From: Calothrix sp. HK-06
GTDB lineage: Bacteria > Cyanobacteriota > Cyanobacteriia > Cyanobacteriales > Nostocaceae
Length of the DNA: 36,126 nt
NCBI RefSeq assembly: GCF_001904745.1
Contig: NZ_MRCD01000088.1
Location: forward strand, 1 to 36,126
Direction of reading: 5' to 3'
How positions within the stretch are numbered: the first letter of the stretch is position 1; the number at the start of each line of letters is the position of its first letter. The notes beneath the pieces were generated by a model that searched no databases, was not told the DNA's origin, and was given only the letters and a program-made list of their open reading frames with translations. A program made the position numbers and the translations under genes. Positions 74-24,529 of the stretch are shown here, in pieces.

Positions 74-1510
74 ATGCTATCTCACAGTAAAATACTTCTG
101 AAAAAAGCTCTAGAACGTTCATCTTGTCCTGAACGTTTAGACCAGGGGATGAAAGCAATTCGTCTTCAAAATTGGCTACCTTTAACTGCTCTCGGTTCTC
201 TTGTTTTTGCAGGTGTAATTTGGAGTATTTTTGGTCGCATACCAGTAACTGTTTCAGGACAAGGAGTATTAATTTATCCAGGTAGAGTTACACCCGTACA
301 ATCTGCTGCTGCGGGACGAGTAGTGACAATGAATGTTAATGTTGGAGACGCTATCAAAAAAGGACAAGTATTAGCAACCGTTGACCAAATAGAACTTCAA
401 AATCAATTACAACAACAGCGTAAAAAGCTTGCAGAACTCGAATCTCAAAATCAAGGCGCCAACTCATTGCAATCTTTACGTCAACAACAAGAACTTAGAA
501 CTATAGCACAACAACGCGAAAGTCTCCAGCAGCGTCTTCTACAAATTCAAAGTATAACTCCTGTTTATAAAGAAAGAGCTTTACTTGCAATACAGCAGCA
601 AAGACAAAGTTTACTACAGAGTCGTGCGGCAGCAGCAAGCATTTCTCCGACTCAACAAGAAGTATATAATGGCTTAAGAAAACTACAATCTCAAGGAGCA
701 GTTTCTAAACAAGTGCTTTTACGAGAGCAACAAGAATACCAGCAAAGTTTACAAAAAGTTGCCGATATCAATGCTCAACTTCGCGAATTAGATGTAAAGC
801 TAGTTGAGACAGAAAAAGCTTATCGAGAAAACTTGAGTCAAATCAATCAACTAAAATCCCAATTACAGGAACTTAACGCCAAAGAAAAAAGCCAAACAGA
901 ACAAGATTATCAATCTACAATCAACCGTCAAAACCAAATTCAAGAAGTCAAACGCAGTATAAATCAGTTAGAAGTGCAATTAAATCAAAATAGTAAAATT
1001 ATTAGTCAGTACAACGGACGTGCCTTAGAAATTAGCGCCGGAACTGGACAAATTGTAGCTGCTGGGGCGCCTATTGTAACTATTCAAGCCGAAGAAGCAT
1101 CGAGCAAGTTAATTGGTTTAACATTCTTTGCTGTTGGAGAAGGTAAAAAAATACGTAAAGGAATGAAGGTGCAAATTACACCAACTACAGTTGAGCGTGA
1201 AAGATTTGGTGGAATTAAGGGTAATATCACAGAAGTTTCTGCTTATCCTGTAAGTCAAGAAGGAGCTTTAAGAATCATTGGTAATTCTGAGGTTGTAAAA
1301 AGTCTAGTTTCAACTGGTCCACAAATTCAAGTTGCCGCTGAATTAATACCAGATAAATCAACTTTTAGCGGTTATAAATGGTCTTCTTCCAAGGGACCAC
1401 AATTACAAGTAACTTCAGGAACTACAACAAATGTGCGAGTCACTGTAGAAGAAAGGGCGCCTATTACTTTTATCTTCCCGATTTTTAGGTCTGTAACTGG
1501 AGTTAATTAA
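74..1510 (+). CDS. HlyD-family adaptor of an NHLM-type peptide exporter
   Basis: This is a 478-aa periplasmic adaptor (membrane fusion protein) that would link an inner-membrane ABC exporter to the outside. A single N-terminal membrane segment lies at about residues 36-54. A biotinyl/lipoyl-like half domain follows at about 63-104 (QSAAAGRVVTMNVNVGDAIKKG). A long Gln/Glu-rich coiled-coil hairpin spans about 105-305, then the second lipoyl half and a beta domain. Architecture and length fit the NHLM bacteriocin-system secretion protein family. The stop codon is separated by one base from the ATG of the peptidase-ABC gene, so the two are almost certainly cotranscribed. No TolC-like protein is visible. 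The exact substrate is inferred from context (the double-glycine peptide at 8860-9060). Confidence 0.88.
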   Translation: MLSHSKILLKKALERSSCPERLDQGMKAIRLQNWLPLTALGSLVFAGVIWSIFGRIPVTVSGQGVLIYPGRVTPVQSAAAGRVVTMNVNVGDAIKKGQVLATVDQIELQNQLQQQRKKLAELESQNQGANSLQSLRQQQELRTIAQQRESLQQRLLQIQSITPVYKERALLAIQQQRQSLLQSRAAAASISPTQQEVYNGLRKLQSQGAVSKQVLLREQQEYQQSLQKVADINAQLRELDVKLVETEKAYRENLSQINQLKSQLQELNAKEKSQTEQDYQSTINRQNQIQEVKRSINQLEVQLNQNSKIISQYNGRALEISAGTGQIVAAGAPIVTIQAEEASSKLIGLTFFAVGEGKKIRKGMKVQITPTTVERERFGGIKGNITEVSAYPVSQEGALRIIGNSEVVKSLVSTGPQIQVAAELIPDKSTFSGYKWSSSKGPQLQVTSGTTTNVRVTVEERAPITFIFPIFRSVTGVN

Positions 1511-1511
1511 A

Positions 1512-3755
1512 ATGCCGTTTTTGAGGAAGATACTTGAAAAAATACAAGACATATTAGTTGCTAAAACAATTCGGTGCCGTACTCCTACTGTTTTACAAAT
1601 GGAAGCAGTGGAATGTGGTGCCGCTGCTTTGGCAATTATTTTAGGTTATTATGGTCGCATCGTTCCTTTAGCACAGTTACGTCAAGATTGTGGTATATCG
1701 CGCGATGGCAGCAAAGCATCGAACATCCTTAGTGCAGCTAGAAGCTATGGGATGAATGCTAAAGGTTTAAAAGCAAATTTGAATGGACTTGGGCGCCTGC
1801 AATGTCCTTATATAGTATTCTGGAACTTTAACCACTTTTTAGTTGTAGAAGGATTTAGTAGTAAAAAAGTATATATAAATGACCCAGCAACTGGATCACG
1901 CTCGATATCACTGCAAGAGTTTGACGAAAGCTTTACGGGTGTTGTTTTAATTTTAGAACCAGGTTCTGAGTTCAAAAAAGGTGGTAGTCAACCAAATGTA
2001 ATTCTATCTCTAAAAAATCGATTAAAAGGTTCAGAAGCATTACTTGCTTATTGTATTGTAGCAGGTTTTTTTATTGTAATTCCTGGATTAGCATTATCCG
2101 TCTTTTCTCAAGTATTTGTAGATAATATTCTCGTTCAAAACAAGCAAGAATGGTTACGTCCATTATTGCTAGGAATGATACTAACTGTCATATTAAACAG
2201 TTTATTGTCATTACTACAATTAAAATTTTTGCGTCGGATGAAGGTAAAATTATCGGTAAGTATGTCAAGTCAGTTTATCTGGCATATCTTGCGCTTACCT
2301 GTTAGTTTTTATGCCCAAAGATTTGCCGGAGAAATTAGCAGTCGCGTTCATTTAAATGATAAATTAGCAGAGCTACTATCAGGAAAATTAGCGACTACAA
2401 CTATTTCAGCTATCATGGTAATTTTTTATGCACTTGTTATGGTGCAATACGATGTTGTACTAACCTCACTGGGAATAGTTTTTGTTGCCATTAACCTTAT
2501 CACTTTACAACAAGTATCACGGTGGCGAGTAGATACAAACATTAAACTAATGCAAGAGCAAGGAAAAGTTAGCGGGGTAGCTATTGCTGGTCTTCAAAGT
2601 ATGGAGACTTTAAAAGCATCTGGTTTAGAAACAGATTTCTTCGCGCGTTGGGCTGGTTATTATGCTAAATCTATTAATGCTCACCAAGATATAGAAATAA
2701 CTAACCAAGTACTAGGAATACTACCGTCTTTCCTCTCCACTATTACATCAATGCTAGTTTTATTTGTAGGTGGACTGCGAGTTATGGATGGTCATTTAAC
2801 AATTGGGATGCTTGTGGCATTTCAAAGCTTGATGAAGAATTTTACGGAACCAGTCAGTAGTCTTGTTAGTCTTGGCAGTGATTTACAAGAAGTTGAAGGA
2901 AGTTTAAATCGTTTAGATGATGTACTAGATCACCCTGTAGACCCAGAATTAAAACTAAATCAAAAACCAGAAAGCACTCTGATTACAAGCTCTATCAATA
3001 CAACTTTACTTCCTCAAATTCGTCTCAAAGGTCACGTAGAGCTAGATAACGTCACATTTGGTTACAACCGAGTTGCCCCTCCTTTAATTTCTAACTCCAG
3101 TCTCAAAATTAAACCAGGACAGCGAGTTGCTTTAGTTGGTAGTAGTGGTTCTGGAAAGTCTACAGTTGCCAAACTTATATCTGGATTATACTCACCTTGG
3201 TCTGGAGAAATTCGTTTTGATGGTAAACCCAGAAAAGAAATTTCTCGTCAAGTACTAGTGAACTCGGTAGCCATCGTTGAACAAGATATATTATTGTTCT
3301 CTGGTAGTGTCAGAGATAACTTAACTCTTTGGGATACAACTGTACCAGATAAATTTATTATCGAAGCATGTAGAGATGCTGCAATTGATGATGTTATAAA
3401 TGAGTTACCATCTGGCTATAATACTAACCTATTAGAAGGTGCCAGCAATTTAAGTGGTGGTCAACGACAACGTTTAGAAATCGCACGCGCGTTAGTAAAC
3501 AACCCTTCCATATTAATAATGGACGAAGCAACCAGCGCACTAGACACCGAAACAGAAAAAATAATCGACCAAAGATTGCGTCAGCGAGGATGCACCTGTA
3601 TTATTATCGCTCATCGTCTTAGCACAATTCGTGATTGCGACGAAATTATCGTTTTAGAACAAGGACAAATCGTACAAAGAGGTGTACATGAAGAATTGTT
3701 AAAAACTCAAGGACATTATTTACAATTAATTCGTAGCGAAGGGGACGCACTATGA
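1512..3755 (+). CDS. C39 peptidase-containing ABC exporter (NHLM type)
   Basis: This 747-aa bifunctional exporter should cleave double-glycine leader peptides and transport the released peptide across the inner membrane. The N-terminal C39 peptidase domain (about 22-150) has all three expected residues: Cys35 in VECGAAAL, His108 in WNFNHFLVV and Asp124 in INDPATG. A six-helix membrane domain covers about 175-450. The nucleotide-binding domain has Walker A GSSGSGKST near 542, signature LSGGQRQR near 647, Walker B ILIMDEATSALD near 667 and the AHRLSTIRD switch histidine. All catalytic residues look intact, so it should be functional. It follows the HlyD-like adaptor by one base. In NHLM systems a second, peptidase-free ABC protein normally accompanies this one; here only a remnant of such a gene is seen (9315-9816). 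Confidence 0.92.
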   Translation: MPFLRKILEKIQDILVAKTIRCRTPTVLQMEAVECGAAALAIILGYYGRIVPLAQLRQDCGISRDGSKASNILSAARSYGMNAKGLKANLNGLGRLQCPYIVFWNFNHFLVVEGFSSKKVYINDPATGSRSISLQEFDESFTGVVLILEPGSEFKKGGSQPNVILSLKNRLKGSEALLAYCIVAGFFIVIPGLALSVFSQVFVDNILVQNKQEWLRPLLLGMILTVILNSLLSLLQLKFLRRMKVKLSVSMSSQFIWHILRLPVSFYAQRFAGEISSRVHLNDKLAELLSGKLATTTISAIMVIFYALVMVQYDVVLTSLGIVFVAINLITLQQVSRWRVDTNIKLMQEQGKVSGVAIAGLQSMETLKASGLETDFFARWAGYYAKSINAHQDIEITNQVLGILPSFLSTITSMLVLFVGGLRVMDGHLTIGMLVAFQSLMKNFTEPVSSLVSLGSDLQEVEGSLNRLDDVLDHPVDPELKLNQKPESTLITSSINTTLLPQIRLKGHVELDNVTFGYNRVAPPLISNSSLKIKPGQRVALVGSSGSGKSTVAKLISGLYSPWSGEIRFDGKPRKEISRQVLVNSVAIVEQDILLFSGSVRDNLTLWDTTVPDKFIIEACRDAAIDDVINELPSGYNTNLLEGASNLSGGQRQRLEIARALVNNPSILIMDEATSALDTETEKIIDQRLRQRGCTCIIIAHRLSTIRDCDEIIVLEQGQIVQRGVHEELLKTQGHYLQLIRSEGDAL

Positions 3756-6082: not shown

Positions 6083-8803
6083 TTACGAGTGACATTGAGA
6101 TAGTATATTACTTTGAGATAAAATAGCGGGCGCCTCTGTCGTCAGTACAACGCTACCATCTTTGTCAATTACCCATGTTTGTGCTTCGACAAATTGATTG
6201 GAAATAGTTGAGGAAGTACTTGAGGTAGGAGTTTCTCTAACTGTTGAATTGCTTGGTTGTTTTGATGCTTCTAACATTCGCCAATCTTCCCAAGAAGAAT
6301 CACTTGACAAAGAATTATTTGGTGACAGAGATATTCCACCACGTCCTGTAACTGTAAAGCTACTATTTGCAGTACGCGCGCAAATATTATCATCAACTAA
6401 CCGAGCAACATCGACTACATCTAACGTTAAAGGTACTAAACCTTTACTAGGGTCAACATCAGGTGTAGTAACTTGGACTGTGCCACTTAAATCAGGAGTT
6501 TTACCTATAGCAGTAATATCACTAGTTTGAGAACTAGGTGCATTTCGGAACTGGGCGCCAAAGATTCCTTGAGCCTTAATTATGACTTGTCCTCCACGAG
6601 ACTCATCAGAATTTGCAGTAATATCACTATTTTCAAACGCTGCTAATACACCGCTATTTATATTGATGTTACCACCAATAACTAAAGTGCCTGTAGCGTT
6701 AGCAGTAATATTACTATCACGACGTAATACTAGGCTAGTAGATTTAATATTAATATTCGCTTGTGGACGATTTGGGTCAACATTAATGCTAGTGGTATTA
6801 GCTTTAAGAACTGCGTTACTGTCTAAAAAGATAGAGCCAGCATTTAAATTGAGACTACCTGCATTTCCTTGCCCTTGACTTGTAACTGATACCTCTGCAT
6901 TACTCGACAGTAGTCGATTAGTGTTTATCGTCACCTCTCCTGCCCTTCCTGTTGAATTTTCTCTAGCTGAGGCGCCTATAAAAGAATTGTTAGAAAGTTG
7001 TACAGAGTCAGTAGCATTTATCTTTATATTACCTCCATTACCTTCACCAAAAGTCCTAGCACTAATTATTGAATTATCCTCAAGGCGTAAAATTTGAGTA
7101 TTAACCGTCAAGTCTCCCGCTACCCCACCCCCATTTTGATTACTTTGTTGAGTAAATAAGCCCGCAGAACCAATAAGTTCCACTCTTCCACCACTCGCAT
7201 TTACAGTCAAATTTCCCCCCTTGCCAGCACCATTAGTGGCAGTGCTAATTGTCCCTAGGTCTTCCATTTGGAGCAAAGGAGTACTAATTGTTAGATTTCC
7301 TCCTATTCCTGTTGCATTTTCTGATGTTTGAGAAAATAAACCACTGTAAGTGTTTCCGTCAGGTGTGGCACCAATAAGTTGCACAGATTCAGTAGCGTTA
7401 ACTATTAAGTTTGCTCCATTACCTGCACTAAAAATGCTAGTATCAATGACTGCTCCATCTTCAATACGTAGCAGACGAGTATTTATTTTGAGTTCTGAAG
7501 TTGCACTTTCTAGACCTTGACTTTGAATAAATATTCCTGTAGGAAATTCATTGATATCTGGACTTTCAATTAATTTAATTGTATCTGCATTTATAGTTAA
7601 ATTTCCTACTCTTCCAGCACCTTTGCTAACAACGCTGATTTGTGATCCATTTTCAAGTTGTAAGAGACGAGTGTTTATTATTACATCTCCTGATGCTCCT
7701 GTTGCATCTTGTTCTGCTTGAGCATAAAAGCCACCGGGAAACTTGTCACTGCCACTATTATACACTCCACTAACTAGTACTTCATCTGAAGTGTTTACAA
7801 TTAAATTTCCACCTAGCTCTGAACCAAGAGTACTTGTTTCAACAACAGAACCATCAATAAGTTTAAGACTTCTAGCTCTGATTTGAACTTCACCACCTCC
7901 TGCACCTGTAGCATCAGCTGCTGTTTGTTGAGATAATACAATATTACCAAAATTTTGTGGGTTACTGTAACCTAAAGAAAAACCTTTTTCTACAGGAACA
8001 ATATCAACAAAACTATTTGCAGCAACACTACCTAATTCTATTCGTCCTCCAGCAGTTTTGATTGTAGCCCCTTCCAAAAAAATATCGCCACTTACCAAAG
8101 CCAAAGTTTGGTTAGGTTGCACTCGCAAAGCAATATTAGTATCTATAGCTTCCGATGGAGTCGTTCGACTTCTTATTCCTTGCCCATCTCCCTGTACTCT
8201 AATTAAACCGGGATTGGCGCCAAATTGCAAACCAATAGGAGTGCTAACAGTTAGTAAAGGTGTTTGTTGTGAAGTTTTTGTCTTATACTCAAATCCATCA
8301 GCAAACTTAATACCCGAAGCAGTAGAAGTAACAAAAGAACCTCCAATCTCTAAACGAGCATTTTTTCCAAATAAAAATCCGTTATCATTAATTAAAAAAA
8401 TATTGGCTGTATTATTAGCTTTAATTATTCCATCAATATTAGAAATTAAATTACCTGTAACTCTACTAATAATATTTTGAATATCTAGAGTATTATTAAA
8501 ATACGCTGTACTACCATTCGGTACAGACAATTCTGAAAAACTGTGGAATAAATTGCTTCCAGATTTTGTGCCACCCTCAATACTTATAACATTATCAGTT
8601 GTTGTTACACGAGAATTTTCAGGTAAATTTGCATCTGGAATAATTTGGGCGTTTACAGGAGTTCCTAAAATAGTTATTATACCATAATAGGCTATTCCAA
8701 TCTTTAAAATCCAGTTTGGATAGACAGAAGAAGGAATAGAAATATCCAAGCTTACAGCAGATTTAAAATTATAGAAGCACATACATAAAAAGCAGAATAT
8801 CAT
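6083..8803 (-). CDS. Two-partner-secretion (filamentous-haemagglutinin-like) exoprotein
   Basis: This 906-aa exported adhesin-type protein has a hydrophobic segment at about 31-48 ending in PVNAQ, a likely signal peptidase site. The TPS/haemagglutinin N-terminal domain follows, with the hallmark stretches NLFHSFSEL, NIISRVTG and IFLINDNGFLFG. The middle is a repetitive beta-helix with recurring GG-N-L-x-V/I-N motifs. The C-terminus carries the cyanobacterial pattern CARTANSSFTVTGRGG followed by a D-x-x-W-E-D-W motif. It would be secreted through an outer-membrane TpsB/FhaC-type pore, which is not in this window. The ATG at 8803 is used, although it makes the signal peptide unusually long. It begins 56 bp after the double-glycine peptide gene in the same direction, so the two may be cotranscribed. 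Confidence 0.85.
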   Translation of the reverse strand: MIFCFLCMCFYNFKSAVSLDISIPSSVYPNWILKIGIAYYGIITILGTPVNAQIIPDANLPENSRVTTTDNVISIEGGTKSGSNLFHSFSELSVPNGSTAYFNNTLDIQNIISRVTGNLISNIDGIIKANNTANIFLINDNGFLFGKNARLEIGGSFVTSTASGIKFADGFEYKTKTSQQTPLLTVSTPIGLQFGANPGLIRVQGDGQGIRSRTTPSEAIDTNIALRVQPNQTLALVSGDIFLEGATIKTAGGRIELGSVAANSFVDIVPVEKGFSLGYSNPQNFGNIVLSQQTAADATGAGGGEVQIRARSLKLIDGSVVETSTLGSELGGNLIVNTSDEVLVSGVYNSGSDKFPGGFYAQAEQDATGASGDVIINTRLLQLENGSQISVVSKGAGRVGNLTINADTIKLIESPDINEFPTGIFIQSQGLESATSELKINTRLLRIEDGAVIDTSIFSAGNGANLIVNATESVQLIGATPDGNTYSGLFSQTSENATGIGGNLTISTPLLQMEDLGTISTATNGAGKGGNLTVNASGGRVELIGSAGLFTQQSNQNGGGVAGDLTVNTQILRLEDNSIISARTFGEGNGGNIKINATDSVQLSNNSFIGASARENSTGRAGEVTINTNRLLSSNAEVSVTSQGQGNAGSLNLNAGSIFLDSNAVLKANTTSINVDPNRPQANINIKSTSLVLRRDSNITANATGTLVIGGNININSGVLAAFENSDITANSDESRGGQVIIKAQGIFGAQFRNAPSSQTSDITAIGKTPDLSGTVQVTTPDVDPSKGLVPLTLDVVDVARLVDDNICARTANSSFTVTGRGGISLSPNNSLSSDSSWEDWRMLEASKQPSNSTVRETPTSSTSSTISNQFVEAQTWVIDKDGSVVLTTEAPAILSQSNILSQCHS

Positions 8804-13874: not shown

Positions 13875-14678
13875 TTATCCGAAGCTTTCAGATATATATA
13901 TAGACGTATCTGAGCTATTACTGTCTACTAGTAAGCTAGTATTGTTTTCTAAGTTTGAGGAGTTGCTGATTCTACGTTGAATAATTTGAATTAGTTGTTG
14001 TGGTTTAAAGGATTCTAGGTTCACGAAATTACCTGCTTGTAGCCATTGTAGTTCTTGTAATATTAATGTATTACGAATCTTATCAGGTAGCTGTACTTGA
14101 CCTACAGTCAAAAATGATTTTTCTACAAGTAGATTATTTTTGTTAGCCAAGACTTGCGAAGGTGTGATACCTATATCAATAATAGTGACATTTGTATCTT
14201 TAAACCAGTCAGAACTTGTGCTGAGACGATGTACTACACATAAACCTTCGGGAGTACAATTGTGCAGTGCGTAAACTTTTAATTCTGGGTTACGTCGTAG
14301 CATCTCCATTGTGGTATCAAAAATGCTTTGAGGGTACCCAGTAATACTAAGAATCGCGCAATTATTTTCAAAGTGAAAGTTATTAGCAATTAAAAACTGG
14401 GCTATATCTGCGGTATCACAAACTACCAATCTATCAAAACTATAAGCTGTAACATCAGGATTAACTTGGGTCGGAATATTATACTCTTGTGCAGGCGCCA
14501 GTCTTCGCGGTATCTTACCATTTATACTTTCCCAGCGATTTAATAATTCAACAAATCGCGTTTCAGATATTGCTAACTTCTCAACTAGCTCACTTTTACG
14601 GTTTTTAACTACCTTTCCACTATATATAGCTAGAACACCAACAAGTAGACTAATAATTTCCCAATATTGCCAACTCAC
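13875..14678 (-). CDS. Truncated paralogue of the neighbouring membrane protein
   Basis: A 267-aa protein when started at the GTG at 14678. From SLLVGVLAIYSG onward it matches the C-terminal 250 residues of the upstream 429-aa protein, including NPDVTAYSFDRLVVC, ADIAQFLIANNFHFENN, LSITGYP, RRNPELKVYALHNCTP and TIIDIGITPSQV. It lacks the zinc ribbon and the first membrane helices. The open frame extends ten codons upstream, still resembling the paralogue, then meets a TAA, so the 5' end was lost after duplication. A 9-bp repeat sits in the short gap just before this edge. It may still be made as a shorter protein. Function unknown. Confidence 0.65.
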   Translation of the reverse strand: MSWQYWEIISLLVGVLAIYSGKVVKNRKSELVEKLAISETRFVELLNRWESINGKIPRRLAPAQEYNIPTQVNPDVTAYSFDRLVVCDTADIAQFLIANNFHFENNCAILSITGYPQSIFDTTMEMLRRNPELKVYALHNCTPEGLCVVHRLSTSSDWFKDTNVTIIDIGITPSQVLANKNNLLVEKSFLTVGQVQLPDKIRNTLILQELQWLQAGNFVNLESFKPQQLIQIIQRRISNSSNLENNTSLLVDSNSSDTSIYISESFG

Positions 14679-14733: not shown

Positions 14734-16023
14734 TTACCCGAAGCTTTGGGTTGAGTAGATGTAAGTATCTGAGCTACTAGCTATTAATAAACCACTATCG
14801 CTTTCTAAATTTAGAGTATTAGCAATTCCGTGTTGAATGATTTGAATTAGCTGCTGTGGTCTAAAAGATTCTAGATTAACAAAATTACCTGCTTGTAGCC
14901 ATTGTAATTCGTCTGGTGAGAGATTATTACAAATTTCACTAGGCAATTGGCTTGCTTCGCTTGCTGATTGCGGTGATGTTTCTATAAAGATATTCTTTTT
15001 GGCGCCAATTACTTGGCGAGGTGTTATACCTATATCAATGATGGTAATATTACTGTTTTGAAACCAGTTTGGACTTGTTCTGAGACGGTTAATTAACCCT
15101 AAACTTTTTGGTGTACAATTATGTAATGCATAAACTTTTAATTCGGGGTTACGTCGCAGCATATCCATCGTGGTTTGAAATATGCTTTCTGGATAACCTG
15201 TAATGCTGAGAATGGCAGAGTTGTTTTCAAAGTGGAAGTTATTGGCGATTAAGAACTGTGCAATATCTGCACTTTCACATACTATTAATCTATCAAAGCT
15301 GTATGCTGTGACATCGGGGTTGATAAGGATAGTTTGGTTATTTAGACTTTGCGGTGCCGGAAGTAATTTGTGAATATTACCATTAACTCTTTGCCAACGG
15401 TTAAGCCAGTCTTGATAATCTGATTCACTAATTAGATATTCTTGGGCTATGGTGGTTTTATTTTGCAAAAGGGCACCTTTATATATAGAAAAGATCCCTA
15501 AAAGTACTGCTATTACAAATGCAGGGAATGAGTTCAGTATAACAGCACTACTATATATACCAATGATTAAAATAAATGCTCCGACAAATATTAGTGATTT
15601 TGCACTTACTTTTCGACTTGCAGCATTAAGCTTTGGCGATTTGGCATTTTTCATAAGAGTTGTAATTATAATAATTTGATAGATTAAATTTGCAGTCAAC
15701 CCACCAAGTGTACCTCCAAAAGAGCTAAAAAATATAGTAAAAAATACCATACCAAAAATGTAACTACAGCCAAAACTACCGCTATTAAAAGCTTTGTTTC
15801 TAAATCTGTTATCTAAAATATAAAACATCTGTTTGGGTGTAAAAAACAGAGTGTTATTAACAGAAATATCACTAATTACTTTTGCAAACATTGGGTCAGT
15901 CAACTTTGTTATACCCATGCTTGTTGGTTCAAAAACAAACGCATGGCCACAGTTTGAACATTTCCCGTAGTTAGCTGTTCTGTCTTTGAGGTTATTGTCA
16001 GTTCCGCAGCTTATACACTTCAT
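14734..16023 (-). CDS. Zinc-ribbon membrane protein of unknown function
   Basis: This 429-aa protein starts with a four-cysteine zinc ribbon (Cys3, Cys6, Cys22, Cys25). A cytoplasmic stretch follows, then about four hydrophobic helices between roughly residues 84 and 185 (IIIITTL, FVGAFILIIGIY, FVIAVLLGIF). The C-terminal 240 residues are soluble and strongly shared with the downstream truncated copy (ITGYPESIF, TIIDIGITPRQV). The motifs TAYSFDRLIVC and ELKVYALHNC suggest an alpha/beta fold. It starts 16 bp after the LysA-like gene in the same direction, so it is probably part of that operon. I do not recognise the family. Confidence 0.8.
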   Translation of the reverse strand: MKCISCGTDNNLKDRTANYGKCSNCGHAFVFEPTSMGITKLTDPMFAKVISDISVNNTLFFTPKQMFYILDNRFRNKAFNSGSFGCSYIFGMVFFTIFFSSFGGTLGGLTANLIYQIIIITTLMKNAKSPKLNAASRKVSAKSLIFVGAFILIIGIYSSAVILNSFPAFVIAVLLGIFSIYKGALLQNKTTIAQEYLISESDYQDWLNRWQRVNGNIHKLLPAPQSLNNQTILINPDVTAYSFDRLIVCESADIAQFLIANNFHFENNSAILSITGYPESIFQTTMDMLRRNPELKVYALHNCTPKSLGLINRLRTSPNWFQNSNITIIDIGITPRQVIGAKKNIFIETSPQSASEASQLPSEICNNLSPDELQWLQAGNFVNLESFRPQQLIQIIQHGIANTLNLESDSGLLIASSSDTYIYSTQSFG

Positions 16024-16039: not shown

Positions 16040-17215
16040 TTAAATAATTTGATTTGCTAGCAAAAGACTGTAATCTTCACGCTTGCGAATTAAGCGGTGA
16101 TTACCATTTTCAATTAAAACTTCTGCTGGTCTAAGACGGTGTAAAAAGTGTGACGACATTGCATACCCATAGGCGCCGACATCTAAAATAGCGACAATAT
16201 CATTTATATTCAACGCTGGTAACAGACAGTTTTTACCTAAATAGTCGCGCGAGTATGTTGTATTGCCGCAAACATCTGTTTGATATAAATCAGAAGATGT
16301 AGAAAATGGATAAGCAATAATTTCTCGATAACCACCATGAACGCTAGGCACACTTAAATTAGCCACAGTAGTATCAACGCCAACAATTTGTTTCTCCGAT
16401 TGCCATTTAACCGAAACAACTTTAGCAAGTAGAATAGCGCATCCAGCAATTGCAGCTCTACCAGGTTCAATCACTAATTCTATTGGGATAGCTAATTTCT
16501 CTAAGCAACGAGTTAACTCGGCGCCAAAAAATTCCCAATCAAAAGCGGCACCACCATGACGATAAGAATAACCAAACCCACCGCCAAAATCTAAATATTC
16601 CCAATCAGGTAATTTACTCGCAACACTAACAACACTTTCAATAGCTTGAGTAAAAGCAGTAGTAGCATTAGTACCAGTACCTCGATAAAAATGTAAACCG
16701 CTAACTTTTAACCCAGCATCACGAGCAATACTCGACGCTTTTGCAAAATCATCAGGATGTACACCAATACGACTATCACCCGTCAACTCAGCAAAATTCA
16801 AACGCAACCCCAATCTTACCTCTTTTTTCTGATTCCAAAAATTATAAACCTGACAAAACAACTCCAACTGTGAAACACTATCCAAATTAAACGTCCTAAC
16901 ACCCCACTCCAAAACCATTAACATCTCATCATAATTAAGATTGCTACCACTATAAACAATCTTCTCTGGACTAAACCCAGCTTGTAGACCTAAATAAACA
17001 TCCCCAGGAGTATTAGCATGAAGTCCCCACCCACAATCTTTAAAAATTTTGAGCAAAGCCACATTTCCATTCGTCACACTCGCAAACCGAAACTGCGTTC
17101 CATCATACCTAACAGACGCACTAATATAATTAATCGTCTGCCGTAACTTATTCGCATCATATATATATATAGGCGAGCCGTATACATCTAATAGTTCCTT
17201 AATTAAGTTTTCCAT
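16040..17215 (-). CDS. LysA-fold (fold type III) protein lacking the PLP lysine
   Basis: Related to diaminopimelate/ornithine decarboxylases: GLHFYRGTGTNAT in the histidine-loop position, LDFGGGFGYSYRHGG (phosphate-binding glycines), IEPGRAAIAG, a C-terminal DVCG cysteine motif and GAYGYAMSSHF. The site that in active enzymes reads YAVKAN is FASVTNGN here, so a Val (codon GTG at 17075-17077) replaces the Schiff-base lysine. The acidic CES part of the active site is also altered to CGN. The protein is therefore unlikely to be an ordinary PLP decarboxylase. The ATG at 17215 overlaps the asnB-like stop by 13 bases, suggesting translational coupling. An in-frame TTG at 17233 is an alternative start. 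The role is unknown but tied to the AsnB-like partner. Confidence 0.82.
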   Translation of the reverse strand: MENLIKELLDVYGSPIYIYDANKLRQTINYISASVRYDGTQFRFASVTNGNVALLKIFKDCGWGLHANTPGDVYLGLQAGFSPEKIVYSGSNLNYDEMLMVLEWGVRTFNLDSVSQLELFCQVYNFWNQKKEVRLGLRLNFAELTGDSRIGVHPDDFAKASSIARDAGLKVSGLHFYRGTGTNATTAFTQAIESVVSVASKLPDWEYLDFGGGFGYSYRHGGAAFDWEFFGAELTRCLEKLAIPIELVIEPGRAAIAGCAILLAKVVSVKWQSEKQIVGVDTTVANLSVPSVHGGYREIIAYPFSTSSDLYQTDVCGNTTYSRDYLGKNCLLPALNINDIVAILDVGAYGYAMSSHFLHRLRPAEVLIENGNHRLIRKREDYSLLLANQII

Positions 17216-18966
17216 TTCTTGTAAAATCTCCAAACTTGACGAGGTAATACAAACGGATGATTCAACTCTTTTTTACCAGCTATTTCACCAAACACGTAAA
17301 GTCGCCACAACTCCCACATAATTAGTAACCATAAAATTTCACCAACACGACGCCCACTAATAGCAGCACTAAATTCTCCACTGACAATTTTAGCTGCAAT
17401 ATCTGGCTGAAAAATACCTTCACTACGTAAAATACCAGGATTTAACCAATCACCTAACTTATGCCAAAACTCGTGTAAACACCAAGAAGTTAATGGTACT
17501 CCCATACCACGCTTTTGGCGCCAAACGATTTGTTTTGGTAGCCAACCATCAACCGCACGTTTCAAGATATACTTTTCACAGCTACCTTGCAGCATTAATT
17601 CCCCACTCAAGCGAAATGACCATTGTGTTAACGGTAAATCGCAAAAAGGAGAACGCACTTTTAGATTTTGAGAAAACCCAATATTAGTAGCCCTCGGCTG
17701 AATATTTTGGGCGCCTTTTAACATCAGCGAAGCGCGTCGTAAGCGATGCATTAATTCATAACTATATTTAGATTCAAGAGCTTCCTGTAACCAATCTTCG
17801 ACACTTAATGAATTAACTTGACAACGAACACCAGGTTGATAAATACTTTCCTCATAACCCCAAAGACGGTGAAAAGTTCTTATATACTGATGAATAAAAC
17901 TTTCTTCCCCATTAGGATGTTGACCTTGATAAATAGCAGCGGCAATTAAAGGTTTATTTGTCCAACCTGCAAATAACTGGTCGCCATTTTCGCCATTAAA
18001 TATTACCTCTGTTTCTTGACTAGCAGCTTGCGCCAAAAGATACAAAGGTACTGTGACACCATCACCAAAAGGTAAATCAAGCGCTTTAACTGTAGGTATC
18101 AAAGCTTTCTGAATATTACCAGAACTAGCATCAACTTTAGCTAAAGGAATATTTAGATGCTGTGCAACAAGTTCTGCATATGGATATTCGGGAATACCTG
18201 CATTACCAAAATCAAGAGTATAAGCTTTGACTTTTACACCTGCTTGCACTAGTAACGCTGCAATAATAGAAGAATCTAATCCACCTGATAAACAAACTCC
18301 CACAGGTTCGTCGTTTAAATCATTTATTTGGCGATTTACAGCGTCTTTGAGTAAAACTTGTAATTCTTCTATTGCCGTGGTTTCATCATAAATTAAATGT
18401 AACCGTTCAGGGGGCGCCTGTTGGAATTGCAGTAATTGCTTTTTTCGTAGAAGATTAATTTCATTATCATTATAATTCCAACTTAATTCAATACCAGCTT
18501 CTACAGCTTGAATTTGGCTAACTGGAGTTACAGGGGTAGGAACGTATGAAAAACAATTATACCCATAAAGTGCAGCAATATTAATCTTAGGTGCCTTTAT
18601 TATTGGTAAAAGTAATTGTAACTGAGAAGCAAACCAAATCACTTGCTCTTGTTGCATCCAATATAAAGGAACTCGTCCAAATGGGTCTCGACCTAAAACT
18701 AGAGTACGAGCTTCAAGACGTACCCATGCATCAGGAAAATCATCCATTCCAGATGCTGAGAGCGAAACAATATGATTTGATGTAATCTTAGTCGAATCTG
18801 GTTGAAAATTAGAAATATAAGCAACATTATATATAATATCGCTATGATTCTGAGCATCTAATTTATAATGTTTTACTTTTATCTTGCTGAAAAGTTTTTC
18901 GATTTCTTGACTTTGACCATAACCCCAATAGCCAACAAAATGGTAATTACCCCGGATGCTACCCAT
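17203..18966 (-). CDS. Asparagine synthetase-like amide-forming enzyme without Cys2
   Basis: This 587-aa protein has the class-II (N-terminal nucleophile-type) plus ATP-pyrophosphatase architecture. The synthetase half carries the PP-loop SGGLDSS (227-233), then LPFGDGVTVPLYLLAQ and FNGENGDQLFAGW, so it should adenylate a carboxylate. Residue 2 is Gly, so the Cys required for glutamine hydrolysis is absent; RDPFGRVPLYW shows the N-terminal fold is retained. Such Cys-less members include lasso-peptide cyclases and beta-lactam synthetases. The amine donor may therefore be ammonia or a small molecule rather than Gln. It lies 9 bp after the 206-aa membrane protein gene and overlaps the LysA-like gene. 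Confidence 0.85.
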   Translation of the reverse strand: MGSIRGNYHFVGYWGYGQSQEIEKLFSKIKVKHYKLDAQNHSDIIYNVAYISNFQPDSTKITSNHIVSLSASGMDDFPDAWVRLEARTLVLGRDPFGRVPLYWMQQEQVIWFASQLQLLLPIIKAPKINIAALYGYNCFSYVPTPVTPVSQIQAVEAGIELSWNYNDNEINLLRKKQLLQFQQAPPERLHLIYDETTAIEELQVLLKDAVNRQINDLNDEPVGVCLSGGLDSSIIAALLVQAGVKVKAYTLDFGNAGIPEYPYAELVAQHLNIPLAKVDASSGNIQKALIPTVKALDLPFGDGVTVPLYLLAQAASQETEVIFNGENGDQLFAGWTNKPLIAAAIYQGQHPNGEESFIHQYIRTFHRLWGYEESIYQPGVRCQVNSLSVEDWLQEALESKYSYELMHRLRRASLMLKGAQNIQPRATNIGFSQNLKVRSPFCDLPLTQWSFRLSGELMLQGSCEKYILKRAVDGWLPKQIVWRQKRGMGVPLTSWCLHEFWHKLGDWLNPGILRSEGIFQPDIAAKIVSGEFSAAISGRRVGEILWLLIMWELWRLYVFGEIAGKKELNHPFVLPRQVWRFYKKWKT

Positions 18967-18975
18967 ATAATTAAA

Positions 18976-19596
18976 TTATCTTACCTCGAAAGTTTCCTCA
19001 CCAAGCACCCTATCATCTAATAACATTTGTACTTTCCACTTACCTACAGCGGCACCGGATTCAAGTACATACTTACAGTGGGTATCCCAAACGGACGTAG
19101 TTACACTTTTTGTTTCATAACTATTTTGCTTGACAGTTTGACCGCTAGGATTTATCCAATTACAAGATAAATTTAACTTTTCACCGACAGGCGCCTCTTT
19201 GAGAGTTACGCGGTAAAAAAACTCAGAATTACTTCCACCATTTTGGGTATTAGTAATTTTCTCACTTTGTACAGCTACACGAGCATAGGTGTTACTACGC
19301 TGCTGTGAAATAAATATTGGGCTACCTATAATTAATACCAAAGCCGCAGCAACAGAACCAAAAATAAACTTATTGCGGCGTTTTTCGGTCTCCAAAGCTT
19401 GAGTGCGTGCGACTTGCGTCATCGCTTCACCAAGTAACTCAGGCGGTAAATTCAACTCGTCAAGTATTTGCTTGACTTGCTCTGGTTCAAGTTCTTGCTC
19501 TTGACGCTCTTTTAGGCGCCCTAGTTCTACGATTATTCGGTCTAGTTGTTCTTGGGTTAATCTTTGATTCATAGAATAATTAAAGTAATGAACCAT
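18976..19596 (-). CDS. Single-pass membrane protein of unknown function
   Basis: This 206-aa protein has a charged, Gln/Glu-rich helical N-terminus (about 9-75), one membrane helix (about 77-96, FIFGSVAAALVLIIGSPIFI) and a C-terminal extracytoplasmic beta-type domain with two cysteines (LSCNWINPSGQ and DTHCKYVLESG) that ends GEETFEVR. The C-terminal domain loosely recalls DUF3859-type domains, but I am not sure. The start is uncertain: ATG at 19596 or ATG at 19572 (MNQRLTQEQ), and neither has a good Shine-Dalgarno. It is the first gene of a minus-strand run with the AsnB-like and LysA-like genes. The 119-197-bp gap to the divergent flavin monooxygenase gene should hold promoters for both. Confidence 0.72.
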   Translation of the reverse strand: MVHYFNYSMNQRLTQEQLDRIIVELGRLKERQEQELEPEQVKQILDELNLPPELLGEAMTQVARTQALETEKRRNKFIFGSVAAALVLIIGSPIFISQQRSNTYARVAVQSEKITNTQNGGSNSEFFYRVTLKEAPVGEKLNLSCNWINPSGQTVKQNSYETKSVTTSVWDTHCKYVLESGAAVGKWKVQMLLDDRVLGEETFEVR

Positions 19597-22816: not shown

Positions 22817-24529
22817 ATGCTATTTAAAGCTTTTTTTAACCGTGAATCTATAGCTGCACCGGGGAATGTAGTAACCACCTGGCAGATAGCTTATGGCTAT
22901 GTAGACTCACTCTCGGTAGAGAATATATTTTGGAGAGATAATAAAGTTATAATTACTGCACCCGATAGTAAAGCGGTTGCGTTTAGCCTTAACCAACGGT
23001 TTGTTGTTGTTGGTGATGTCTGGTTGAGTAATCGACGAGAGTTAAGTGTTGCTTATAATATCTCAATAAATAATGATATTCAATTAGTCGCGCAGCTTTG
23101 GGAAAAATTTGGTATTGAATCTTCAAAGTTACTAGTTGGTATATTTGGACTGGTAATTTGGGATAAAGATGAACAAGTTTTATATTCAGCACGCGATTGT
23201 ACTGGTTCACGTACTATTTACTATACAACTAATGGTTCGACTTGTTGGTTGGCACCTTCGTTAAGAACACTTGCACCATATCGTTCTAAAGATTTAGATC
23301 TGGTAGCGTTGCGTGATTATTTGTGCTGTGCTTTTGTTCCTGGAGAGAGAACTTTGTGGAATGATGTTAAAGAATTGCGTCCAGGAACGATACTAAAATT
23401 ACCTTTGGGAGAAATTCATTCCTTTTGGCAACTTAAAGAGCAAATTATTGATAGTGATAAACCTTTATTATGGCATGGAGAAAAGTTACGGCAGCTTTTA
23501 GACCAAGTTATTAAAGAATATTTACCTCAAAATCAATCGGTGGGAGTTTTGCTTTCGGGTGGTTTAGACTCTAGTAGTGTGACTGCACTTGTAAGTAAGC
23601 TGCATAACGCACCAGTTCATACTTTTTCGATTCATTTCGGCGCCGAATGTCCGAATGAGTTAGAATTTTCGAGTTTAGTAGCAGAACATTGTCAAACTCA
23701 GCACCACATTCTCGAAATTACTTTTAAAGATATGTGGGAACGTTTGCCTGAAGTAATGACGCATTTGGATGACCCGATAGGAGACCCTTTAACTGTACCA
23801 AATTTATTGGTTGCTCAACTTGCACGCGAATATGTAGAAACAATACTCAATGGTGAGGGTGGAGACCCTTGTTTTGGCGGTCCCAAAAATCAACCGATGT
23901 TGATAAATAATTTATATGGTTCGGTAACAAATCAAGATACTTTACAAGCTTATTTAACTTCTTTCCAAAAATGTGCCGTTGATTTACCGTTGCTACTTAA
24001 ACCGGGCGTATGGAAAGCAGTTAGTCATGCTCCATCGGTATTTACTGAAGATTTATATTCAAAAGATAACTATTTAAATAGACTAATGGCGCTTAATATT
24101 AAATATAAAGGCGCCGATCAGATATTAACTAAAGTCAATAATACAACAACTGCTATGGGGTTGTTGGGACTTTCGCCTTTATTTGACCAGCGAGTGGTAG
24201 ATTTAAGTATGCAAATACCTCCACAGTATAAATTATCTGGAGTCGAAGAGAAAGCAGTTTTAAAGCAAGCGGTAGCGGATATAGTACCCGATGCGATTAT
24301 CAATCGTCCAAAAAGTGGCATGATGGTACCAGTTCAGCTAGGTTTCCGTAAATATTGGCAACGCGAAGCCAGAAGTTTATTATTAAATAGAAACGCAATG
24401 ACAGCGCCGTATTTTAATCAAAGTTTAATCAAAGATTGGCTAAATTACCGTGGTGATACGTGGAGAAGATACGGTGTTAAACTCTGGTTACTGGTTAGTT
24501 TAGAAATTTGGTTACAAGTTAATCGCTAG
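22817..24529 (+). CDS. Second asparagine synthetase-like enzyme without Cys2
   Basis: This 570-aa protein carries the PP-loop SGGLDSS (247-253), DDPIGDPLTVPNLL and NGEGGDPCFGGPKN, so the ATP-dependent carboxylate activation half is intact. The N-terminal part has the glutaminase-like fold (LVGIFGLVIWDKDEQ, SARDCTGSRTIYY), but the protein starts Met-Leu-Phe and no Cys is in position 2. Glutamine hydrolysis is therefore unlikely. It differs clearly from the 587-aa homologue, so it is not a recent duplicate. The two probably act on different substrates or steps. It is divergent from the amidase gene, with almost no intergenic DNA between them. Confidence 0.85.
   Translation: MLFKAFFNRESIAAPGNVVTTWQIAYGYVDSLSVENIFWRDNKVIITAPDSKAVAFSLNQRFVVVGDVWLSNRRELSVAYNISINNDIQLVAQLWEKFGIESSKLLVGIFGLVIWDKDEQVLYSARDCTGSRTIYYTTNGSTCWLAPSLRTLAPYRSKDLDLVALRDYLCCAFVPGERTLWNDVKELRPGTILKLPLGEIHSFWQLKEQIIDSDKPLLWHGEKLRQLLDQVIKEYLPQNQSVGVLLSGGLDSSSVTALVSKLHNAPVHTFSIHFGAECPNELEFSSLVAEHCQTQHHILEITFKDMWERLPEVMTHLDDPIGDPLTVPNLLVAQLAREYVETILNGEGGDPCFGGPKNQPMLINNLYGSVTNQDTLQAYLTSFQKCAVDLPLLLKPGVWKAVSHAPSVFTEDLYSKDNYLNRLMALNIKYKGADQILTKVNNTTTAMGLLGLSPLFDQRVVDLSMQIPPQYKLSGVEEKAVLKQAVADIVPDAIINRPKSGMMVPVQLGFRKYWQREARSLLLNRNAMTAPYFNQSLIKDWLNYRGDTWRRYGVKLWLLVSLEIWLQVNR

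Follow-up and report, generated by a model that had tools for sequence, protein, structure and literature searches.

A fold-III decarboxylase-like family lacking the catalytic lysine, encoded with two AsnB-like ligases and a membrane protein in Cyanobacteriales

Among the fold-III LysA/ODC-like proteins of Cyanobacteriales, there is a family, here denoted LysX, in which the Schiff-base lysine has been replaced by valine and which, by alignment, has also lost the catalytic cysteine and acid, with the predicted cup for the pyridoxal phosphate (PLP) cofactor kept. The family evolves under purifying selection and is inherited together with two AsnB-like ligases (AsnB1 and AsnB2) and a membrane protein (TopX). 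The copy described here is encoded in a stretch of 36,126 nucleotides of contig NZ_MRCD01000088.1 from Calothrix sp. HK-06 (hereafter, the window; Table 1).

Table 1. Positions of the LysX gene, its motifs and the associated genes in the window.
Feature	Positions	Strand	Remarks
TopX	14734..16023	-	Cys4 zinc-ribbon motif, membrane segments, Top6A/Spo11-like Toprim domain, variable tail ending -SFG
C-terminal Phe-Gly of TopX	14737..14742	-	
LysX (fold-III LysA/ODC-like barrel protein)	16040..17215	-	without catalytic Lys, Cys and acid
GAYG (347-350) with Tyr349 of LysX	16166..16177	-	Tyr in 101/102 genomes
T320-Y321-S322-R323, LysX counterpart of LysA C-E-S-G	16247..16258	-	from alignments to 2p3e and Lys-bearing relatives
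EPGR (250-253) of LysX	16457..16468	-	Glu and Arg each in 102/102 genomes
GGG phosphate-binding loop (211-213) of LysX	16577..16585	-	middle Gly in 102/102 genomes
Val47 (codon GTG), PLP Schiff-base Lys site of LysX	17075..17077	-	
AsnB1 (AsnB-like ligase, PP-loop, without N-terminal Cys)	17203..18966	-	overlaps LysX by 13 nt
B206 (small protein)	18976..19596	-	one membrane segment by eye and conserved C-terminal domain
AsnB2 (second AsnB-like ligase, PP-loop, without N-terminal Cys)	22817..24529	+	

The LysX open reading frame codes for 391 amino acids when counted from the ATG at 17215; the TTG at 17233 is likewise open. Val47 aligns opposite the Schiff-base lysine of the solved DAP decarboxylases. 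In a search of 388 Cyanobacteriales genomes (E <= 1e-60), LysX matches were found in 102 genomes and 45 of the 149 genera, and the site was read in these 102 genomes, pieces under 38% identity being left out: Val is present in 100, the site is unreadable in two (G051 and G285), and Lys is found in none. The replacement of the catalytic lysine by valine that the initial annotation had read from the GTG codon at 17075-17077 is thus borne out, and its corollary, that LysX cannot be a standard Lys-dependent decarboxylase, is supported. The loss is a trait of the aligned family, and the case of Lys-bearing homologues with a mutation in this copy alone is excluded in the sample.

The initial annotation had also matched the acid motif CES with CGN in LysX, and this assignment proved to be a misalignment: in the alignment with 2p3e and Lys-bearing relatives, CGN sits four residues upstream, and it also precedes CES in the Lys-bearing relative L136 (CGNICESGD). 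In these alignments, DVCGNTTYSRDY of LysX pairs with DIVGPICETGDF of 2p3e and with TICGNICESGDI of L136, so that the C-E-S-G counterparts are T320-Y321-S322-R323, which are conserved in 102, 101, 101 and 100 of the 102 genomes, respectively. Judging from this alignment, LysX has lost the proton-donor Cys as well as the acid, not the acid alone; the two roles are those that we take over from work on LysA and ODC.

The fold itself is familiar. LysX passes the Pfam cut-offs for PF02784 and PF00278 (the barrel and the C-terminal sheet domain), scores 236 bits against the curated NCBIfam lysA model, under its cut-off of 297.9 bits, and all 50 Foldseek matches listed for it are fold-III decarboxylases, the query being an AlphaFold2 model with a mean pLDDT of 64.3 that is poor after residue 260. 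An identity of LysX as the standard LysA was considered and rejected, a separate LysA-like gene with both Lys and CES (L002) being present at another place in the same genome.

The cup of the cofactor site is a different matter. The persistence of the glycine loop, EPGR and GAYG motifs, noted already in the initial annotation, extends across the family, with G212, E250 and R253 present in 102 of the 102 genomes, Y349 in 101, and T180 in all 102. From the ODC and LysA structures, we take E250 to be the glutamate that faces the pyridine nitrogen and R253 to be the phosphate arginine, and Tyr349 is presumably the phosphate-binding tyrosine; together, T180, G212, E250, R253 and Y349 are the ligands that we would expect for the phosphate and the ring nitrogen of PLP. 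These predicted cup residues are nearly invariant. No candidate emerged for a PLP aldimine on another lysine, the case that according to the initial annotation would have spoken against its reading. When the Lys-rich columns are inspected in the 68 intact LysX rows, K270 alone is invariant (68/68), and it belongs to the C-terminal domain, outside the barrel, with a Lys at the same place in the LysA 2p3e; another barrel lysine as the Schiff-base site is, therefore, rejected.

Beyond the order, searching 386 genomes from the cyanobacterial phylum with a profile (E <= 1e-40) gave matches in 37. In G414 and G455, the match is an ordinary relative with the lysine; Val occupies the site in G394 and G421, which represent other classes of the phylum and are ~40% identical to LysX, and in G407 and G512, from the same class as the window genome. 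Outside the phylum, relatives reside on rhizobial plasmids, with Met at the Schiff-base site and a common T-[YF]-S-R-D motif; two of these carry the annotations 'alanine racemase' and 'diaminopimelate decarboxylase'. In two rhizobial loci (L142:3757-8155 and L143:4616-9047), the Lys-to-Met relatives adjoin two radical SAM genes each, a pair made up of an ApyD-like B12-binding protein and a mycofactocin-like SPASM protein (the best NCBIfam matches are ApyD and mycofactocin-type maturases, both under the cut-off); TldD-like and DUF3050 genes are also located nearby in L142.

Two trees each place all 24 Lys-less rows, 19 of them LysX, in one clade against the Lys-bearing rows (10 in the first tree and 7 in the second, from which the long-branch rows L003, L014 and L144 were omitted), with a support of 100/96. 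A single loss of the lysine holds for this sample only, because the outgroup is small and the sampling may lack a closer relative with the lysine. Across Cyanobacteriales, LysX sequences are ~60-96% identical, falling to about 40% beyond the order, and the dN/dS ratio lies within the 0.13-0.24 range in nine pairs. LysX is under purifying selection.

Compared with LysA (TIGR01048; 2p3e, 2yxx and 1knw), which provides the best Foldseek and phmmer matches, LysX has the same fold, GGG loop, EPGR and GAYG but differs in the change of Lys to Val, the catalytic Cys to Thr, Glu to Tyr and the next Gly to Arg. The PLPBP/YggS/PipY proteins retain the B6 lysine and consist of a single barrel domain. In ODC, Arg277 and Tyr389 take part in PLP binding. 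The fold-III protein AZIN1 is an ODC homologue that is no longer active and acts by way of partners; it fails to bind PLP, and at Arg277 and Tyr389, termed dimer-interface residues in the source (PMC6313458), its sequence departs from that of ODC. LysX is likewise a fold-III protein, with candidate partners suggested by co-occurrence and gene overlap; in its residues, it is the reverse of AZIN1, keeping R253 and Y349, the equivalents of Arg277 and Tyr389, and losing the Lys, Cys and acid. The PLPBP/YggS/PipY family, likewise of fold III and studied in cyanobacteria, is described as having no known enzymatic activity in PMC9605639.

The gene order in relatives is B206, AsnB1, LysX, TopX. The overlap of LysX with a Cys-less AsnB-like gene, to which the initial annotation had called it translationally coupled, is present in the window and recurs in 25 of 50 AsnB1-LysX pairs, with starts chosen by script. 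LysX and AsnB2 occur together in 52 of 71 stretches, and AsnB2 is convergent behind TopX on the opposite strand in 42 of the 52; in the window, it is found on the other strand past three other genes, 3.2 kb beyond B206. The B206 protein gives a weak DUF3859 match (20 bits against a cut-off of 24). Co-occurrence was assessed, with broken copies counted, in 54 chosen genomes, 34 with LysX, picked for long contigs or odd cases, and 20 without it, all from one family. TopX, AsnB2 and AsnB1 are found in 34, 32 and 28, respectively, of the genomes with LysX, and in 0, 1 and 0 of those without it; one AsnB1 match, in G188, was left uncounted because it falls at the AsnB2 gene. AsnB1 is not an obligate partner because it was not found in 6 of the 34 genomes with LysX. 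A broken LysX is accompanied by the breakage or absence of further module genes in three genomes, G051, G127 and G333: the remnants of AsnB1 and LysX adjoin in a single open frame of 620 amino acids in G051 (L098), and module genes are split or interrupted in G127 (L099) and G333 (L103).

An example of the module under its locus tags is found on the linear plasmid NC_014534.1 of Gloeothece verrucosa PCC 7822 (CYAN7822_RS31775 to RS31755); a protelomerase-family gene (L140:12898-14259) lies ~1.7 kb past the module on this plasmid. Elsewhere in the window, positions 74-3755 (+) encode an HlyD-like protein, recognised by eye, and a C39-peptidase ABC exporter that matches NHLM_micro_ABC1 (1156 bits against a cut-off of 853), and positions 6083-8803 (-) encode a large, repetitive, secreted-looking protein, by eye similar to filamentous-haemagglutinin-type exoproteins. 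A PADLOC search at E 0.01 gave no match for LysX, TopX or B206 and only weak QueC matches on the AsnB PP-loop, on which basis a known anti-phage defence system was rejected.

The SGGxDS motif of the PP-loop is invariant in the alignments of the two AsnB-like families (22 rows in A5 and 21 rows in A6). The N-terminal nucleophilic Cys2 that characterises glutamine-dependent asparagine synthetases is lacking in both AsnB1 and AsnB2: with starts chosen by script, Cys is absent from position 2 of all 50 AsnB1 and 46 AsnB2 ORFs, and 10 and 2 of these, respectively, have a Cys anywhere up to residue 12. Both proteins score under the cut-offs of the lasso-cyclase and asn_synth models and carry conserved motifs of their own, GDQLFAGWTNKP and GDPCFGGPKNQP. 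AsnB2 matches 1jgt and 1q15; beta-lactam synthetase, CarA, lasso cyclase, PesC, TsrC and ScdTA are likewise AsnB-like ligases, and several of this group act on peptides. PesC converts a peptide C-terminus to an amide and then to a nitrile, TsrC and ScdTA are named as C-terminal amidating enzymes, and a Glu-Tyr dyad of PesC, in which E363 is important and Y368 essential, is conserved across five AsnB-like enzymes, according to PMC13060819. Mapped by spacing, this dyad corresponds to Q330/W335 in AsnB1 and P351/P356 in AsnB2, and the aligned beta-lactam synthetase also lacks the PesC-type Glu; on these grounds, neither AsnB1 nor AsnB2 is likely to be an ordinary amidotransferase. The XrtA/PEP-CTERM pair TIGR03099 and TIGR03108 likewise brings together a fold-III decarboxylase and an AsnB-like protein in one system. 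TIGR03108 is the best match of AsnB2, at 223.4 bits, far under the cut-off of 816.9, and the TIGR03099 decarboxylase reaches 90.8 bits, far under 478.45.

For TopX, the first ten PDB matches in Foldseek, which place its C-terminal domain, are topoisomerase VI A and Spo11 proteins (E from 7e-5 to 3e-2; model mean pLDDT 65.6). The Toprim profile PF21180 (TOP6A-Spo11_Toprim) matches 25 of the 27 TopX proteins compared, with E values no higher than 1 and a best value of 7.5e-8; the window protein alone scores 13.6 bits, under the cut-off of 24.1. Unlike Topo VI A and Spo11, TopX is a membrane protein with a zinc ribbon. In our own mapping, with DxD taken as the acidic Toprim motif of Top6A, TopX reads HDxS, HDxN or HN and lacks the acidic triad: none of the 27 rows of alignment A4 has the second Asp, and several, among them the window protein, have Asn in place of the first. 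Metal catalysis by TopX is, therefore, doubtful.

The C-terminus of TopX is unusual in its conservation. Phe-Gly ends all 55 intact ORFs of a filtered set, from which matches covering under 85% of the query and 33 matches with internal stops, including 15 of TopX, were dropped (some resulted from merged adjacent copies); from positions -4 to -40, the commonest residue reaches at most 67%. A wider reading without the filter, with no end obtained in four loci (L086, L095, L099 and L103), gives FG in 84 of 90 ends. Of the remaining six, two read SLG (L055) and SLV (L096), three are located where the sequence has a gap or the contig stops (L070 once, L094 twice), and the last belongs to an additional copy in L005. 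No pair like Phe-Gly appears in the last seven residues of four other module families; B206 comes closest, its Val at -2 and Phe at -4 each reaching 98%. The conserved end behind variable residues suggests that the free C-terminus of TopX is recognised or modified, and it could be a mere docking tip. A second copy in the window (13875-14678, -) comprises the C-terminal part alone, matches residues 166-438 of the full L004 TopX at 92% and likewise ends in SFG; several TopX matches and fragments are present in G314. In a deep-branching relative (L135:13069-13125), DSFG occurs twice in the tail, like tandem core motifs.

The losses, the retained cup, the single clade, the purifying selection, the co-inheritance and the joint decay in three genomes are sequence-based observations. 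The reading that we tentatively prefer, while granting it somewhat less than an even chance, takes LysX for a pseudo-decarboxylase: within a membrane-associated modification module that depends on ATP, it would be the subunit for ligand binding or docking. Its barrel would still hold, in the PLP site, a ligand that carries a phosphate (PLP, PMP or an analogue), would have given up the Schiff-base and proton-transfer chemistry, and would act by binding that ligand or by docking, possibly in a physical complex with AsnB1, AsnB2 and TopX. The two AsnB-like proteins, as putative ligases, would draw on ATP to activate a carboxylate, which they would couple to some amine that is not ammonia released from glutamine, and TopX would serve as the anchor and, via the conserved -FG tail, perhaps as the recruiter or the substrate. 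For AsnB-like enzymes that act on peptide C-termini, PesC, TsrC and ScdTA provide a precedent (PMC13060819).

The conserved polar residues specific to the family, R323, H66 and N68, would equally fit a new catalytic site, and thus LysX might be an active enzyme with a new, Lys-free chemistry that employs R323, Y321, Y177 and H66 on noncovalently bound PLP or PMP or on another phosphorylated ligand. To our knowledge, there is no Lys-free fold-III PLP enzyme, and three catalytic residues are gone together, which makes this a less likely alternative, even though the active-site positions are fixed to the new residues rather than relaxed (R323 and Y177 each in 100 of 102 genomes; H66 and N68 in 49 of 49) and the rhizobial rows, two of which (L142 and L143) adjoin radical SAM genes of the peptide- and cofactor-maturase type, also carry the T-[YFH]-S-R-D signature. 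Tyr in place of the stacking His is not diagnostic because the Lys-bearing rows L144, L147, L148 and L014 have Tyr there too. Fold-III decarboxylases are usually dimers with shared active sites, in which one subunit lends the catalytic Cys to the other, and LysX could, accordingly, be a regulatory sensor or heteromeric partner in the manner of AZIN, reading the B6 or amino-acid status, or pairing with a Lys-bearing LysA, to control AsnB1 and AsnB2. Such a role, for which the inactive regulator AZIN1 (PMC6313458) and the bearing of PipY on B6 and the amino/keto-acid balance in a cyanobacterium (PMC9605639) provide precedents, appears unlikely, given that the Cys to be lent is Thr in LysX and that no lysA was seen beside LysX in the stretches read.

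The FG end of TopX (55/55 and 84/90 in the two readings) behind its variable stretch, the repeated DSFG in L135, the maturase-like radical SAM genes beside two rhizobial Lys-less relatives, one of them near the TldD-like gene, and the activity of AsnB-like enzymes on peptide C-termini (PMC13060819) would also be in line with a RiPP-like or ubiquitin-like system, with LysX as the substrate-recognition barrel and AsnB1 and AsnB2 activating the -FG carboxylate of TopX and amidating, cyclising or conjugating it. Several facts make this quite improbable: six of the 90 ends lack FG, the PesC dyad is, in the mapping by spacing, replaced in both ligases, and no separate conserved precursor ORF was found among the twelve families (of 5 or 6 loci each) listed from a comparison of 4141 small ORFs, none of which is precursor-like, so that such a precursor was rejected. 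Furthermore, the tail of TopX may be a docking peptide only, as is the tail of SSB. A bolder proposition of this kind, and a long shot, is that former decarboxylases, already Lys-less before the cyanobacteria diversified, became a recognition barrel, with AsnB-type ligases coupling the -Phe-Gly end of TopX to an amine; if true, AsnB chemistry would be put to use on a resident membrane protein in a manner reminiscent of ubiquitin or RiPP systems. The possibility that the LysX gene is decaying or reflects an assembly error is negligible: some copies are indeed broken (G333, G127, G285 and G051) but, for the family, the identity levels, the low dN/dS and the Val in 100 of 102 genomes refute it, and a local mutation or pseudogene was rejected on the same evidence.

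LysX has a known fold; its combination of losses and the module were not seen described in the open-access literature, with no account of the module or of a Lys-less LysA family found among the matches listed in a phrase-based search, which is not proof of absence from print. In one annotated record, the genes of the module are labelled 'decarboxylase', 'asparagine synthetase B family protein', 'asparagine synthase-related protein' and 'hypothetical protein', so that a conserved module lies hidden behind misleading labels. PLP enzymes are mostly recognised by their cofactor-binding lysine. The LysX clade, with Val in 100 genomes of one order, has kept the predicted cup under purifying selection with the Lys, Cys and acid gone, and hence offers a clean case for asking what use there may be for a B6 pocket without B6 chemistry.
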